This document shows, piece by piece, positions 1,188 through 6,095 of a DNA stretch of 12,055 bases. The position numbers and the translations under genes were made by a program. Within the stretch, counting starts at the first letter, position 1; each line of letters opens with the position of its first letter. The stretch is taken from the NCBI GenBank assembly GCA_030595135.1, contig JAUVDU010000013.1, forward strand, positions 1-12,055, read 5' to 3'. This DNA is from Deltaproteobacteria bacterium (GTDB lineage: Bacteria; Desulfobacterota; Anaeroferrophillalia; Anaeroferrophillales; Tharpellaceae). The notes below the pieces were generated by a model. It was not told the DNA's origin and did no database searches. It saw nothing but the letters and a program-made list of their open reading frames with translations.

Positions 1188-1760
1188 ATGGAAACCATCA
1201 TCGCAAAAATCTACGACCTCTTTAACAACCCCGAACTGCGTGGCAAGTTGCTCACCTATCGCTGGCCCCTGACAATTACCATCCTGATCATTCTCTCACT
1301 GCTCATGAAACCGCAGTACTTCTGGCTTGGCCTACTCATCTCACTAGCCGGAGAAGCTCTTCAGGTCTGGTGTTTTGCCGCTTTGCACAAGAAAAAGGAG
1401 CTCGCCAACACAGGTCCATACGCCGCTGTCAGAAACCCGATGTATATTGGCCGCTACTTTCTCATTCTGGGGATAGTCGCCATTACCGGCAACCTCTTTT
1501 TGATGATTATTTTCAGTCTCATCTACTATTTTTACATGGTCAACCGGGTGCAGCGAGAGGAGGAGGTCTTAAAAGAGATTTTTGGCGAGGCCTACCAGGA
1601 TTACTGTAATCAGACCAATCGTTTTATACCCGCCTGGCAAGGAGTTAATAAAGAGACAATACGCTATTTCAGGTGGGATCTGTTTTTTAAAAACAATGCC
1701 CACTTGAATCTACTTTCGGTAATTGTCGGTTACCTGATCGTCTACAGTTGGCTTTTTTGA
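1188..1760 (+). CDS. Isoprenylcysteine carboxyl methyltransferase (ICMT)-like membrane methyltransferase
   Basis: A 190-residue integral membrane protein. Hydrophobic segments lie at about 26-40, 45-66, 90-117 and 172-190. The family signature is clear: GPYAAVRNPMYIG at 76-88 (SAM-binding G-P-Y-x-x-x-R-N-P), followed by REEEVLKEIFGEAYQDY at 123-139 and a C-terminal RFIP. This is the conserved C-terminal core of the ICMT/phospholipid methyltransferase (PEMT) superfamily. Bacterial members methylate lipids or other small membrane substrates; the substrate here is unknown. ATG 1188 is preceded by AAGGA at a slightly long spacing. The TGA stop (1758-1760) is partly supplied by the end of an inserted MITE; removing the element restores ...SWLF followed by TAA, so the C-terminus is unaltered. 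The gene sits between an LPS-kinase-like protein and a MATE exporter, which suggests an envelope-modification role (inference). Confidence 0.78.
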   Translation: METIIAKIYDLFNNPELRGKLLTYRWPLTITILIILSLLMKPQYFWLGLLISLAGEALQVWCFAALHKKKELANTGPYAAVRNPMYIGRYFLILGIVAITGNLFLMIIFSLIYYFYMVNRVQREEEVLKEIFGEAYQDYCNQTNRFIPAWQGVNKETIRYFRWDLFFKNNAHLNLLSVIVGYLIVYSWLF

Positions 1761-1896
1761 ACTATTCAGGCACTAAGTGAGAAGCACCGTATATTGATGA
1801 ATTTCCGTAAATTCCGAGGACATAACCCGGTTCTCCGAAGGAAATCGGGATTGTGTCCCCGGAATTTACGGATTAGCTGAATAGTTACGCTTTTTT
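1751..1896. mobile_element. 130-bp IS66-type MITE, copy 1, with 8-bp target duplication
   Basis: The element spans 1759-1888. Its ends are GAACTATTCAG on the left (one T shorter than the consensus) and CTGAATAGTTAC on the right, which is the reverse complement of GTAACTATTCAG. Direct repeats GCTTTTTT flank it at 1751-1758 and 1889-1896. It has no coding capacity. Its centre is a long hairpin in which TCCGTAAATTCCG (1804-1816) pairs perfectly with CGGAATTTACGGA (1860-1872), extended by imperfect GGACATAACCCG/CGGGATTGTGTCC arms. GTAA-starting ends and 8-bp duplications are known traits of IS66-family insertion sequences, so this is probably a non-autonomous derivative. It is nearly the same as the copy at 5958-6087. 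It lies between the ICMT-like and MATE genes and may act as a terminator or RNA-stability hairpin. Confidence 0.88.
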
Positions 1897-1914
1897 AAAA
1901 AAGGGGTTCTGCAA

Positions 1915-1983
1915 ATCAACCAACGACTGGGAAAATTAGCTCAGGCTCCGCGCCGGGCCCTTTTTCGTCTGGCCTGGCCGACC
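1915..1983 (+). other. MATE N-terminal coding extension lacking a canonical start
   Basis: Upstream of the first usable TTG/ATG of the MATE gene, the same frame stays open back to the TAG at 1882-1884. It encodes NQRLGKLAQAPRRALFRLAWP, the typical amphipathic lead-in and start of helix 1 of MATE proteins. No ATG, GTG or TTG occurs in this stretch. The codon at 1915 is ATC, placed 8 nt after the purine-rich AAAAAAGGGG, exactly where a start codon would be expected. CTG at 1909 is an alternative but lies too close to the ribosome-binding site. Either the start was lost (ATG to ATC), or a non-standard start is used, or there is a base error. Confidence 0.55.
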
Positions 1984-3258
1984 TTGATGGCGACCATGGT
2001 GCAAACCATGTACAACCTTGTCGACACCGCGTATATCGGACGCTTGGGAACAGCGCCGCTGGCGGCCCTGACGTTCTCTTTCCCTCTCTTTTTCACGTTG
2101 GTCTCATTTAATATCGGCATGGGGGTGGGCCTTAACTCGACAGTTGCCCGCCTCCTCGGTGCCGGCAACGAAAAGGCGGCCGCGAATACGGCCCTGCATG
2201 GAATTGCCAGTTCACTGCTATGTGCGACTTTCCTCTTTCTGACAGTCGAGATTTTTCTCGATCCCTTACTGACAATTCTCGGGGCTGAAATGGAAGTCCA
2301 CAAACTGGCGGGTGACTATATGCGGATCATTGCCGTCGGGGTTTTTCTGATGTTTCCGATGTACGCCATCAACAGTATTTTTACGGCCCAGGGTGACACC
2401 GTTACCCCGATGAAACTTCAGTTTTTCACCCTTTTTCTCAACTTAGGCCTTGACCCGCTCTTTATCTTCACATTCAAACTCGGCATTAAGGGAGCCGCCA
2501 TCGCCACCGACATTGCCCTGCTGGCCGGTTTACTTCTGGCGATCTTCTACCTGAAACACCGCTCCGCCCTGCATCTTGGTCGCAAAGTCTGGCATTTCTC
2601 TTGGGCCACGATCAAAGAGATCTTTGCCATCGGCCTGCCGGCGAGCTTGACCATGCTCCTGATGGCCGTCTACATGATGGTCATCAACCGCCTGATTTCC
2701 GGATACGGCACCGACACCGTAGCGGCGTTAGGACTGGTCACCCGGATAGACAGTGCCGTCATTATTCCGATGGTCGCCTTTTCAGTTGCTTTGCTGACCC
2801 TGAGCGCCCTCTTTTACGGTGCCGGGCGTATTCAACTGCTTCGTGAGATCATCAATTTTGCGATTTTAGTCAATGTCGGTTTTGCCTTAATTTGTTCTCT
2901 TTTTATGTTTATCTGGCCCCACTTTTTTCTGCGTTTTTTTACCAACGAGGCCGAACCTCTGCGCCTGGCGTCCGCCTATCTGCGCCTTGAAGTATTGTGT
3001 TTTCCGTTTATGGCAATAACCATCTCGGCCAACCGTACCTTACAAGGTTTGGGTTTAAGCTTGCCCGGCCTGGCGATTAACGGAGCCCGCCTCTTTGTTG
3101 TCGCTCTGCCGCTGGCTGCTATTTTTATTATCTATCTCGAATGCGATTTTCGCATGGTCGCTATCGCCGGACTCTGCGGCAGCCTGACTTCAGCCACCAT
3201 CGCCAGCCTCTGGCTCAAAAAAACCCTGACGCGAATCGAAAACCGGGAAAGTACCTAA
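1984..3258 (+). CDS. MATE-family multidrug/cation antiporter
   Basis: The open frame encodes a polytopic membrane protein with about 12 hydrophobic helices in two similar halves. The first half starts with MVQTMYNLVDTAYIGRLGT, the classic helix-1 signature of MATE exporters (MatE domain). It continues with the loop motif VARLLGAGNEKAA, and the second half carries an equivalent pattern near LPASLTMLLMAVYMMVINR. MATE proteins export cationic drugs or metabolites in exchange for Na+ or H+; the substrate cannot be told here. Using TTG 1984 or ATG 1987 gives 424 or 423 residues but cuts into helix 1, whereas homology-like sequence extends to about 1915, giving about 447 residues, the usual family length. 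A MITE sits directly upstream. Before that insertion the gene would have followed the ICMT-like gene by about 17 nt. The stop overlaps that of the convergent porin gene. The family is clear; the start is unresolved. Confidence 0.85.
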   Translation: MMATMVQTMYNLVDTAYIGRLGTAPLAALTFSFPLFFTLVSFNIGMGVGLNSTVARLLGAGNEKAAANTALHGIASSLLCATFLFLTVEIFLDPLLTILGAEMEVHKLAGDYMRIIAVGVFLMFPMYAINSIFTAQGDTVTPMKLQFFTLFLNLGLDPLFIFTFKLGIKGAAIATDIALLAGLLLAIFYLKHRSALHLGRKVWHFSWATIKEIFAIGLPASLTMLLMAVYMMVINRLISGYGTDTVAALGLVTRIDSAVIIPMVAFSVALLTLSALFYGAGRIQLLREIINFAILVNVGFALICSLFMFIWPHFFLRFFTNEAEPLRLASAYLRLEVLCFPFMAITISANRTLQGLGLSLPGLAINGARLFVVALPLAAIFIIYLECDFRMVAIAGLCGSLTSATIASLWLKKTLTRIENREST

Positions 3259-4679
3259 AACTTGTAACGCACATGAAAAGTACTTACAAAAATATCTTCA
3301 TCACTGCTACCGTCACGCTGGTCCACTTCCCAAAAATCCATAGCGTCGCTACTAAACAGGTAACCGGCATTAATTGCAAATTCCAGATTATCGTAAATTT
3401 TGTATTTCATGAAAGCATCGATTTCAATCCCGACTTCATCCTCTCTTCTCTTTTTACCACTGTCATCAAGGTAGACAATATCTTCGGCCGTTAACATATA
3501 CATTGCCGCCGTACAAAAAGAGAGTTTTTTGCTGAATTTATAATCAAAGGCCAGCTTGTTCATGATAAAACCTTTATCAAGCAGATAGTCTTTTTCCGTG
3601 AAATAATCATCTTCAGTCGACATCGCTTTAAAAATACAGATATTGTCTTTACGATCAATATCAACCGCCATAAAAGCGTCAAAATCACTGTCACTACCAT
3701 CATCGTCGCCGGAAGCGTACCAGAAAGTGTAGGTAAATTTCATTTTATTAATCTTGTAACCAATGTCAACATGGGCCAGCCAGGCACTTACATCGAAATC
3801 TTCGTTAACTCGACCCTTGTTATAATCCCAGCCGTTGTAAGACTCTTTAAAATTGGCATCATCAACGCTGCCGGTCTGATACATGAGATCCCAATTAAGA
3901 AACATTGAACCAACATTGGCCTTACCATCCGTACCAATCGTAAAGAGGCTGAGATCATACTCGTTTTTAAATTTTTTCACTTCATAATTTTGCGAGGTGA
4001 TCGTACTAAAGTTTGCCGGGTCACTCTTGTCAGGGTCTCCGTTAAAGTAGAGCCCAAAAATACCGACACTGATATCTTGAGTCGGTTTAAAGTTAACCCG
4101 AACATAAAAAGCGTCAAGATCTTCAACATCATCATCATCATCTTGAACCGGATCCCGATAAGGTCGTAACCAGGCCAATTTCAAATTAACCGGCCCCGCC
4201 GCGATATCAGACGTCACCCCCATGATCGTCTCTTTCCAGAAATAGGAATTTACATTAAAAGGTTGCAGACCCATACGAATTCGGGCTTTACTTTCAAGCC
4301 ACGGTAACTGAAAATCAGTGTAGAGCCAACGAGTTTCAAGGTTGATGCCATCACCGGAGTAGCTCCCGCCCACACTTTTGCCGACACTACCAGGTTTACC
4401 ATACTCAAGAGAACCAACCTCCCAAGCCCAGACACCTCTAACTTTATCATCATTAGTTGCCGCATTAAACCACATCCGGTACTTGGTTTCACCCCAGGTT
4501 TCCGACGAGCTCCCGTCATGCAAAACCCCTTTCTCGGCATTCAACCAATCATTATGATTGGTGTAGACCATGAAACGGTTATTAAAATCACCCTTAATTT
4601 TAACGTCTGCAGCCAAGGCTGGAACAGCTATAATCACCAGTAGTAGAACAATTGTCAAAAGCACCATTCTTTTTCTCAT
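3255..4679 (-). CDS. Outer-membrane beta-barrel porin-like protein
   Basis: A 474-residue exported protein. A signal peptide (MRKRMVLLTI..., hydrophobic core to about residue 22) ends in ALAA, with the mature chain from about Asp25. Many alternating amphipathic strands follow, such as RFMVYT, KARIRMGLQPF and LEFAINAGYLF. The last residue is Phe in FHVRYKF, the usual outer-membrane insertion signal recognised by the BAM machinery. Two strongly acidic stretches (residues 180-189, with five Asp encoded by five GAT repeats, and about 325-335, DDDGSDSDFD) are probably surface or pore loops. ATG at 4679-4677 was chosen over the upstream ATG because AGGAGG precedes it at good spacing and the signal peptide begins there. 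It is divergent from the nickel operon and convergent with the MATE gene (stops overlap). No specific porin family was recognised; diffusion of small solutes or ions is the likely role. Confidence 0.75.
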   Translation of the reverse strand: MRKRMVLLTIVLLLVIIAVPALAADVKIKGDFNNRFMVYTNHNDWLNAEKGVLHDGSSSETWGETKYRMWFNAATNDDKVRGVWAWEVGSLEYGKPGSVGKSVGGSYSGDGINLETRWLYTDFQLPWLESKARIRMGLQPFNVNSYFWKETIMGVTSDIAAGPVNLKLAWLRPYRDPVQDDDDDVEDLDAFYVRVNFKPTQDISVGIFGLYFNGDPDKSDPANFSTITSQNYEVKKFKNEYDLSLFTIGTDGKANVGSMFLNWDLMYQTGSVDDANFKESYNGWDYNKGRVNEDFDVSAWLAHVDIGYKINKMKFTYTFWYASGDDDGSDSDFDAFMAVDIDRKDNICIFKAMSTEDDYFTEKDYLLDKGFIMNKLAFDYKFSKKLSFCTAAMYMLTAEDIVYLDDSGKKRREDEVGIEIDAFMKYKIYDNLEFAINAGYLFSSDAMDFWEVDQRDGSSDEDIFVSTFHVRYKF

Positions 4680-4922
4680 TTTCTCCTCCTGTAAAATGGT
4701 TTGCTTCATTTTTATTTCGTTTTTGACGTAACCCTAAAAAGTCTTAGTCCCTCAAGATTCAATAGTATAAATATTAATATAAATAGATACTTAGAGCTGG
4801 CATCATATGTAAAACATAGCATAAGATGACAGCTTTTCATACTTTTTTTATAAATTATTTTTGCAGCTATTCAGGCATCCATAAATCCGAATAGTTAAGT
4901 TAATAAAAAACCTTTCAAACAC
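4680..4922. other. AT-rich divergent intergenic region
   Basis: This stretch separates the porin gene (minus) from the nickel-operon promoter (plus). It contains the strong AGGAGG ribosome-binding site of the porin near 4681-4689 and an AT-rich zone around 4760-4860 with several possible minus-strand -10 boxes, none convincing. A short MITE relic lies at 4863-4898. No gene is visible on either strand, and no clear repressor palindrome (for example a NikR-type dyad) was found. Confidence 0.5.
4863..4898. repeat. Internally deleted relic of the MITE family
   Basis: Left-end-like GCAGCTATTCAGG and right-end-like CCGAATAGTTAA, each with about two changes from the intact ends (GTAACTATTCAGG and CTGAATAGTTAC), face each other across only about 11 bp. 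The hairpin core is absent and no 8-bp target duplication remains. It appears to be an old or internally deleted copy lying just upstream of the nickel-operon promoter. Confidence 0.5.
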
Positions 4923-4951
4923 TTGACATTTTCTCAAATACAAGCTAGCAA
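4923..4951 (+). promoter_or_regulatory. Candidate promoter of the nickel-transport operon
   Basis: A perfect -35 box TTGACA (4923-4928) is followed after 17 bp by TAGCAA (4946-4951), a weak -10 match. Transcription from here would give a leader of roughly 220 nt before nikK. It is the best sigma-70-like pair between the MITE relic and nikK. The weak -10 leaves room for an activator or an alternative site. Confidence 0.4.
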
Positions 4952-4963
4952 CAAGCGCAATAG

Positions 4964-4979
4964 GCATGCTGAAGCGTGC
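4964..4979 (+). promoter_or_regulatory. Leader hairpin with UGAA loop
   Basis: GCATGC (4964-4969) pairs with GCGTGC (4974-4979) around the tetraloop TGAA, with one G-U pair, and is followed by four T. It lies at the predicted 5' end of the nickel-operon leader. It could stabilise the transcript or form part of a regulatory fold. Confidence 0.35.
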
Positions 4980-5074
4980 TTTTACGAAGCGGATATATTT
5001 TATTCACCTTAACCCAAATTTGACCAGCTAACCTCAACAATAGATACATCGGCCCTTGAAGGCCAGGAACCGGC

Positions 5075-5126
5075 ACCACGAAGGTGTGGATATTATAAAA
5101 ATATCCCGCTCTCGTGGTTTTTTTTT
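5075..5126 (+). terminator. Candidate attenuator in the nikK leader
   Basis: ACCACGA (5075-5081) pairs perfectly with TCGTGGT (5112-5118). Nested inside is a second perfect 7-bp stem, GGATATT (5088-5094) with AATATCC (5100-5106), closed by a 5-nt loop. Nine consecutive T (5118-5126) follow. This is the form of an intrinsic terminator placed about 50 nt before the nikK start, within its own leader. A competing pairing exists: CACC (5074-5077) with GGTG (5083-5086) would use up part of the terminator's 5' arm. That arrangement fits transcription attenuation of the transporter operon, possibly by a metal or cofactor. No known riboswitch consensus was recognised with confidence. Confidence 0.55.
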
Positions 5127-5178
5127 GCCTACTCGGCAAAATTATTTTAATGCATCAATTAAGATCCTGGAGGAAACA

Positions 5179-5961
5179 ATGTTAAAATTTACCATCTCCT
5201 TAAGTACAGTGTTATTTTTTCTTCTCCTGATTTCCGGATCAGCAACCGCCCATTTCGGCATGCTCATCCCTTCCGACAACATGGTTATGCAGGGCGACAA
5301 TCGCACTATCAAACTGAACTTGAGTTTCTCGCATCCCTTTGAACAGGTCGGCATGAAGCTTTCAAAGCTTCAACATTTTGCCGTCCGCCATGGCGGCGTC
5401 ACCCATGACCTGAGCAGCACTTTAAGCCCGGCCACGATCATGGATCATCCAGCTTTAAGCTGTGACTACGCCATCAAACGTCCCGGTATCTATCAATTTT
5501 TCATGGAACCGACGCCCTATTGGGAACCGGCCGAAGACTGCTTTATCATCCATTATACCAAAACCGTGGTGGCCGCCTTCGGTGACGACGAAGGTTGGGA
5601 CGAAGAACTCGGCTTGAAAACTGAAATCGTGCCCCAAACCAAGCCTTTCGGCCTTTATCAAGGCAATCTTTTCCAAGGCATCGTCAAGGTCGACGGTAAA
5701 CCGGCAGCTTATGCCGAAGTTGAAGTCGAGTATTACAATGAAACGGGAACGGCCCAAGCCCCAAGCAACTATATGATTACCCAAACCATCAAGGCCGACG
5801 CCAACGGCCTCTTCAGTTACGCCGTACCCAAAGCCGGATGGTGGGGCTTTGCCGCCCTCAGTACGGCACAAACAAAGCTTCCTCGCAACGGCGTTGATAA
5901 AGAGGTTGAATTGGGGGCCGTAATCTGGGTTCATTTCGAGCCCTGGCAAGAAAAAAAGTAA
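5179..5961 (+). CDS. nikK: NikK-type periplasmic nickel-transport auxiliary protein (DUF4198)
   Basis: A 260-residue exported protein of the DUF4198 type that accompanies NikM-type nickel ECF transporters. The signal peptide (MLKFTISLSTVLFFLLLISG) ends in SATA, so the mature chain should begin HFGMLIPS; a His straight after the cleavage site is typical of this family. Other features are an acidic middle part and a beta-sandwich-like C-terminal region with KVDGKPAAYAEVEVEY, GLFSYAVPKAGWWGF and a final aromatic and charged segment. It probably captures or hands on Ni2+ (or Co2+) in the periplasm. ATG 5179 was chosen over an upstream in-frame ATG because TGGAGG precedes it and the signal peptide starts there. 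The TAA stop lies inside a MITE; without the element the end would be the same QEKK, then TGA. It is separated from nikM by that MITE and a 41-codon ORF. Confidence 0.8.
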   Translation: MLKFTISLSTVLFFLLLISGSATAHFGMLIPSDNMVMQGDNRTIKLNLSFSHPFEQVGMKLSKLQHFAVRHGGVTHDLSSTLSPATIMDHPALSCDYAIKRPGIYQFFMEPTPYWEPAEDCFIIHYTKTVVAAFGDDEGWDEELGLKTEIVPQTKPFGLYQGNLFQGIVKVDGKPAAYAEVEVEYYNETGTAQAPSNYMITQTIKADANGLFSYAVPKAGWWGFAALSTAQTKLPRNGVDKEVELGAVIWVHFEPWQEKK

Positions 5962-6095
5962 CTATTCAGTGCCAGTAGAGAAGCACCGAATATTGATGAA
6001 TTTCAGTAAATTCCGGGGACATAACCCGATTCTCCGAAGGAAATCGGGATTGTATACCCGGAATTTGCGGGTTAGCTGAATAGTTACGAAAAAAA
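5950..6095. mobile_element. 130-bp IS66-type MITE, copy 2, with 8-bp target duplication
   Basis: The element spans 5958-6087. It has perfect 12-bp terminal inverted repeats, GTAACTATTCAG (5958-5969) and CTGAATAGTTAC (6076-6087), flanked by direct repeats GAAAAAAA (5950-5957 and 6088-6095). It differs from copy 1 at about a dozen positions, mostly in the 12 bp after the left end. The core hairpin is kept, including AAATTCCGGG paired with CCCGGAATTT. It has no coding capacity. It inserted across the nikK stop codon and separates nikK from the rest of the operon. Its hairpin could reduce read-through or mark an mRNA processing point (inference). Confidence 0.9.

Follow-up and report, generated by a model that had tools for sequence, protein, structure and literature searches.

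Two short elements beside gene ends

The window, by which we mean the whole stretch of 12,055 nucleotides that was analyzed, carries two short elements, one overlapping the end of a methyltransferase-like gene and the other the end of a DUF4198 gene, each bracketed by an 8-bp direct repeat that is read directly from the sequence. The features are as follows.

1188–1760, plus strand: methyltransferase-like gene (PEMT), its stop codon TGA (1758–1760) completed by copy 1
1751–1758: left target duplication of element 1, GCTTTTTT, 8 bp, found singly and without the element in two relatives
1759–1888, plus strand: MITE copy 1, 130 bp long, its left end GAACTATTCAG short of one T, its right end CTGAATAGTTAC located at 1877–1888
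1804–1872, plus strand: internal hairpin of copy 1 (the element with its target duplications folds at -57.1 kcal/mol, z -6.6)
1889–1896: right target duplication of element 1, GCTTTTTT, 8 bp
5056–5961, plus strand: DUF4198 gene, its stop codon TAA (5959–5961) coming from the GTAA end of copy 2, with a true start that may be internal to these limits
5950–5957: left target duplication of element 2, GAAAAAAA, 8 bp
5958–6087, plus strand: MITE copy 2, 130 bp, both ends intact, GTAACTATTCAG (5958–5969) and CTGAATAGTTAC (6076–6087)
6006–6068, plus strand: internal hairpin of copy 2 (the element with its target duplications folds at -56.3 kcal/mol, z -8.6)
6088–6095: right target duplication of element 2, GAAAAAAA, 8 bp

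An earlier note on this DNA had described two elements of 130 bp, each with its own perfect 8-bp direct repeat, and all of these are present at the positions given there. Its statement that the two share the terminal repeat GTAACTATTCAG is correct for three of the four ends, which are exact, but not for the left end of copy 1, which reads G-AACTATTCAG and is short by one T. Pairwise alignment of copy 1 with copy 2 yields 8 mismatches and 6 gap positions, close to the dozen or so differences that had been claimed. Matches to the end with two mismatches or fewer number seven in the window compared with 0.57 expected, and a count of seven was reached in none of 200 shuffles. Both elements have terminal inverted repeats that start with GTAA and both have 8-bp duplications, as is characteristic of the IS66 family. 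They are also shorter than about 300 bp, gene-free, multicopy and bounded by terminal inverted repeats and target duplications, as is typical of MITEs. No Rfam family was detected in the window at gathering scores.

Other IS66-like sequences occur in the window. At 310–321 there is a solo end, GTAACTGTTCAG, which has one mismatch and follows a T tract, the next match with at most two mismatches being at 1758. A 36-bp remnant at 4863–4898 has IS66-like ends that face each other, GCAGCTATTCAG on one side and TTAACTATTCGG (minus strand) on the other, with two mismatches each.

Copies in the host genome and an empty site

The host genome is a 2.18-Mb draft (2,181,224 bases) in 415 contigs that is 70% complete. 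A deep-branching Desulfobacterota lineage, for which the phylum Tharpellota is proposed, is described in the paper on Candidatus Tharpella aukensis (PMC9213671). The exact end GTAACTATTCAG occurs 134 times in the host genome (71 forward and 63 reverse), while a reversed-pattern control gave no occurrence in either direction. A BLAST search with copy 1 matched 40 places among the best 40 of 98 candidates, partial matches included, with identities down to 83%, and copy 2 was matched, in some cases partially, in 14 of the 22 genomes of the order. The window shuffles and the genome end counts exclude chance, and the observation is real and confirmed.

We surveyed end-pairs in 137 contigs or part-contigs (792,397 of 2,181,224 bases, 36%), which were mostly those bearing hits, together with C319–C385, taken by number, and, from C386–C414, C391 only. 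This survey yielded 76 end-pairs, a count in which spurious pairs may be included; 53 of them measure 128–134 bp and the others 59–244 bp. With the boundary of copy 1 corrected, an 8-bp repeat flanks 33 of the 76 exactly and 48 with at most one mismatch (32 and 47 uncorrected), compared with 0.48 and 1.01 per 76 when the flanks were re-paired, a control run on the uncorrected boundary list. Exact flanking repeats of other lengths were found at four end-pairs for 7 bp and at none for 9–12 bp.

The first site also has an empty counterpart, since relatives G010, which is of the same genus as the host, and G019 carry a single GCTTTTTT and lack the element. Relatives G013 and G020 are without the element at the second site, where the junction has diverged so that the target copy number is unreadable.

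End-pairs on contigs C366, C138, C282, C77, C35, C383 and others of the host genome measure 59–77, 152, 167 and 188–199 bp. Such end-pairs of other sizes, several of them with 8-bp duplications, apparently represent additional MITE families that share these ends.

A resident TnpC fragment and assignment of the ends

The sole match to PF03050 in the host genome is a 126-codon C-terminal fragment of TnpC located at the very start of a contig (C203:1–381), which scores 45.7 bits against a cut-off of 23.1; the partial protein scores 84.5 bits against NF033517, under the cut-off of 180 for that model. The sequence CTGAATAGTTAC is found at C203:399–410, 17 bp past the tnpC stop codon, and is identical to the MITE end at 12 of 12 positions. 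Only the right end of this element is assembled, the contig end cutting off the rest, and tnpC is represented in this 70% complete assembly by its C-terminal fragment only. Read inward, the C203 end is GTAACTATTCAGCGTAA, which over 17 bp is identical to the left end of the consensus for the MITE family, and the window copies diverge from this match after base 12 or earlier. By eye, the MITEs and the resident fragment are alike over their 12–17 terminal bases, the remainder of the parent being unassembled.

The earlier note had listed three findings that would speak against its IS66 interpretation: no further copies, no 8-bp duplications at other copies, or ends unrelated to any IS66 transposon in the genome. 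None of these was obtained, and the interpretation is therefore supported.

In the 22 genomes of the order there are 10 PF03050 loci. The end is present with one mismatch or none in three of these (L031, L197 and L200) and absent from the remaining seven, some of which are cut by a contig end or belong to another IS66 lineage. TnpC matches with an E value of 1e-20 or better were found in 10 of the 395 genomes of the phylum, the host included. Sixteen loci were retrieved with the TnpC fragment. In six of them each of the two ends has one mismatch or none; L213, an end pair with one and two mismatches, was excluded from the six, and all the others have one end or none. Perfect 8-bp duplications flank four of these two-ended relatives, AAAACGCC in G224 and AAACAAGT, AGATATTT and AATAAAAA at three copies in G177, and L208 and L215 are without a duplication. 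All six have one long frame of 471–495 codons, and their sizes are 1757–1758 bp (L207, L214 and L218), 1566 bp (L208), 1730 bp (L215) and 1833 bp (L219, with a duplicated left end). In L219, from G177, the duplicated left end is 75 bp long and the 8-bp duplication AATAAAAA lies outside the outer copy.

Duplications of 8 bp are not unique to IS66, being produced also by, for example, IS256, ISL3 and IS1595, and mobilization by one of these or another DDE family that makes 8-bp duplications would be compatible with the target repeats. However, the 12-bp end is shared without a difference by a PF03050 element of the host genome and by tnpC-bearing relatives, and we regard mobilization by such a different family as extremely improbable.

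The presence of one long frame in the relatives, together with the lack of any match to TnpB (PF05717) in the host genome, conforms to the single transposase of the ISBst12 group. A member of this group, ISDge4 of Deinococcus geothermalis, is described as having the ends GTAACTGCTCAGCA/GTGACTACTCAGCA, a single transposase of 449 aa and an 8-bp repeat, and as having been caught transposing (PMC12898284). Based on the resemblance of the ends, the 8-bp duplications and the single long frame to those of published ISDge4, we place the ends in the ISBst12 group of the IS66 family. The window elements resemble this group (ISDge4; ISBst12) in their GTAAC–TCAGC ends, which have 11 of 13 bases in common with one ISDge4 end, and in the 8-bp duplication, and their relatives do so in the single long transposase frame; they are unlike it in that they are 130 bp long and transposase-free. 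With classical IS66 (tnpA-tnpB-tnpC, e.g., ISPa75) the shared features are the GTAA start and a DDE_Tnp_IS66 transposase, whereas the two-ended relatives here measure 1.57–1.83 kb with one long frame, and the classical ends given in PMC12888890, GTAAGCGTCC and GTAACCGTCC, differ past GTAA. The IS66 reading of the repeats is supported, with the refinement that they belong with the single-gene ISBst12 group and not with classical tnpABC IS66.

We conclude, with a probability that we place at roughly 0.94, that both repeats are non-coding MITEs with ISBst12-group IS66 ends that are apparently mobilized in trans by TnpC with an 8-bp stagger. In the proposed mechanism the TnpC transposase, supplied in trans, would recognize about 12–13 bp at each element end, and insertion with an 8-bp stagger would give rise to the 8-bp duplications. 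It is from sequence comparison that we infer that this particular TnpC moves the elements, and the transposition chemistry and the minimal length of the ends are likewise proposed on that basis.

The same ends in other genomes

The pattern GTAACTATTCAG-N92-120-CTGAATAGTTAC was found in at least 113 stretches of public genomes. Records among the matches listed are from Gamma-, Alpha- and Betaproteobacteria, Mariprofundaceae, Desulfobacterota groups, Lachnospiraceae, Bacteroidota, Chloroflexi, Nitrospirota, Verrucomicrobia, Planctomycetaceae and Deferribacteres. The matches listed include 118 exact-ended elements from 113 loci, which BLAST linkage divides into 46 unrelated interior groups. Among the 115 listed elements with full flanks, an 8-bp repeat is exact at 50 and has one mismatch at 21 more, and an exact 9-bp repeat occurs at two; re-pairing the flanks of these elements gave 0.5 exact repeats and 1.3 with at most one mismatch.

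This kind of element is already known, as an IS-derived MITE, and the finding is a solid but fairly ordinary one, elements with the same ends being present in many unrelated bacteria. Like the window elements, the IS-derived MITEs MITECca01 and MITEPsy1 are short and non-coding, have ends resembling those of a parental IS and are present in several to many copies; the parental families given for them are other ones, IS982 and probably IS5 (PMC9769881, PMC3189936). We found no literature joining the terms 'ISBst12' and 'MITE', in a search that most subscription papers lay outside, so that this is weak evidence of novelty. The present analysis documents an ISBst12-group IS66 MITE family whose ends are parent-like, for which an empty site exists and of which a genome can hold tens of copies. 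In addition, the recurrence of these ends in many phyla around interiors that are unrelated and often form hairpins provides natural material for testing how short the ends of this transposase group can be and whether a hairpin core helps.

The internal hairpin and its relation to RAYT palindromes

Across 53 copies of the element, two-sided changes that preserve pairing were seen at 4 of the 33 predicted pairs of the hairpin. A copy in another genus (L075), flanked by the 8-bp duplication AGGCGTGA, has a different, well-paired stem. The stem contains a 13-mer, AATTCCGGGGACA, which has 18 exact sites in the host genome: 10 in full elements, five in three truncated elements and three elsewhere, these last being upstream of the stronger of two Y1_Tnp matches (C137:7302), in an array on C374 and on C415.

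The strong hairpin in both window copies is a feature that would also be expected if a Y1 (RAYT) transposase had spread the repeats as REP/REPIN-type palindromes, the IS66-like ends being incidental. The 13-bp stem motif is indeed shared with the flank of a RAYT gene of the host, as AATTCCGGGGACA lies just upstream of the stronger Y1_Tnp match within an array of related motifs, with a similar array on C374. However, the window elements have DDE-type terminal inverted repeats, and their 8-bp duplications directly adjoin the GTAAC ends on the outer side, whereas enzymes of the IS200/IS605 type are described as acting without larger duplications (PMC2817692). Furthermore, a substrate of a REPIN/RAYT system should exist as a free repeat, but none of the 18 exact motif sites is a free hairpin copy: 15 are inside elements and the other three are not hairpin copies. 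We therefore consider spread by a RAYT to be very unlikely as an account of the elements, which we continue to view as IS66-type MITEs.

The RAYT-like (Y1) transposase gene on C137 is a frame at 1198–1980 of locus L220, on the minus strand, with arrays of ATTCCGGGGACA-like motifs on both sides. The similar motif array on C374 is located around 1600–1740, and C374 has no Y1_Tnp match.

The shared AATTCCGGGGACA is a lead to, and not proof of, a link with RAYT palindromes. One form such a link could take is that the interior is a captured RAYT-type palindrome, making the element a chimera in which a vehicle moved by IS66 surrounds a REP-like hairpin. The 13-mer common to the hairpin stem and the RAYT flank is consistent with capture, as is the presence of hairpins in unrelated elements with the same ends elsewhere, but the similarity of the stem to the RAYT flank stops after ACA and the consensus of the MITE family is CTGGGG, not CCGGGG. 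In G399, an unrelated host, the interiors were read at 30 loci of 93 matches, and both IS66-type ends were present at 22, one end at six and neither at two, which likewise argues against capture. On balance we think a chimeric origin rather unlikely. The candidate idea that a free hairpin repeat is the main form in G399 was rejected, based on the 22 of 30 loci read with both ends.

When one interior was scored for each of the 46 listed groups from other genomes, 28 had a fold z of -3 or lower, compared with 3 of 88 adjacent flanks. After 26 bp had been trimmed from each side, the corresponding figures were 20 of 46 groups and 7 of 175 flanks; the groups that did not reach this threshold thus number 18 untrimmed and 26 trimmed. 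These hairpin-rich interiors, which were scored against flanks, may reflect a general property of MITEs. A tentative suggestion, which we hold to be possible rather than probable, is that ISBst12-group ends are a cross-phylum chassis, in which 12 bp may suffice for the mobilization of unrelated interiors and an internal hairpin has been repeatedly selected. If the hairpin has a role, it would perhaps be selected for bringing the ends together or for protecting host mRNA at gene-end insertions. In one same-ended element from Methylococcaceae (L394, G399:C470), tandem partial matches at 20-bp spacing lie beside the hairpin.

Target sequences and placement at stop codons

In the host, the A/T content is 76% for the 48 duplications with one mismatch or none, compared with 63% in 40-bp flanks, and runs of five or more A or T are present in eight of the 48 versus 2.5 expected. 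The corresponding duplications in other genomes (71 of the 115 listed elements) are 75% A/T versus 60%, with 13 such runs versus 3.3 expected. A weak palindromic tendency, TA-[AANNNNTT]-WA, is seen in both target sets. The preference for A/T tracts that had been suggested from the two window sites is therefore upheld as regards A/T richness, which is real, but homopolymeric targets are not the rule; they are enriched yet a minority (8 of 48 in the host, 13 of 71 in other genomes), and those in the window are of this minority type.

Joining the flanks with the element removed gave the same predicted last residues for the genes at both window sites. In relatives G010 and G019 the methyltransferase-like gene ends with the same last residues before its stop codon, and in the relatives at site 2 the last residues of the DUF4198 gene differ by a few. 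The position of insertions relative to genes was determined for 42 of the 48 host sites (the six with flanks too short were dropped), using frames of 100 codons or more. Of the 42, 27 are intergenic, 14 are in-frame and one is in a frame that runs off the edge of a contig; for random positions (n = 1500), 70% are inside frames and 17% in an open frame. Eleven of the 14 in-frame insertions are within 14 bp of the stop codon, one is 33 bp away and two are within 24 bp of the predicted start. Overall, 20 of the 42 insertions (11 inside and 9 outside) are no more than 15 bp from a predicted stop codon, compared with 14% of non-disruptive positions and 17% of A/T-rich ones, an excess whose size is approximate because the gene caller was crude and missed short genes, and because the elements themselves are among the control positions. 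Insertions are thus mainly intergenic or at the extreme ends of genes.

Two factors would contribute to placement at gene ends: a preference for targets that are rich in A/T and resemble TAAA-N4-TTTA, among which stop codons can be included, and selection against gene disruption. The stop-codon-proximal insertions and the hairpin-rich interiors across phyla are the parts worth following, the hairpin cores and the insertion sites being two puzzles. Insertion beside stop codons that leaves the predicted protein almost unaltered, as read in two cases, suggests how elements of this kind become numerous while doing little harm.
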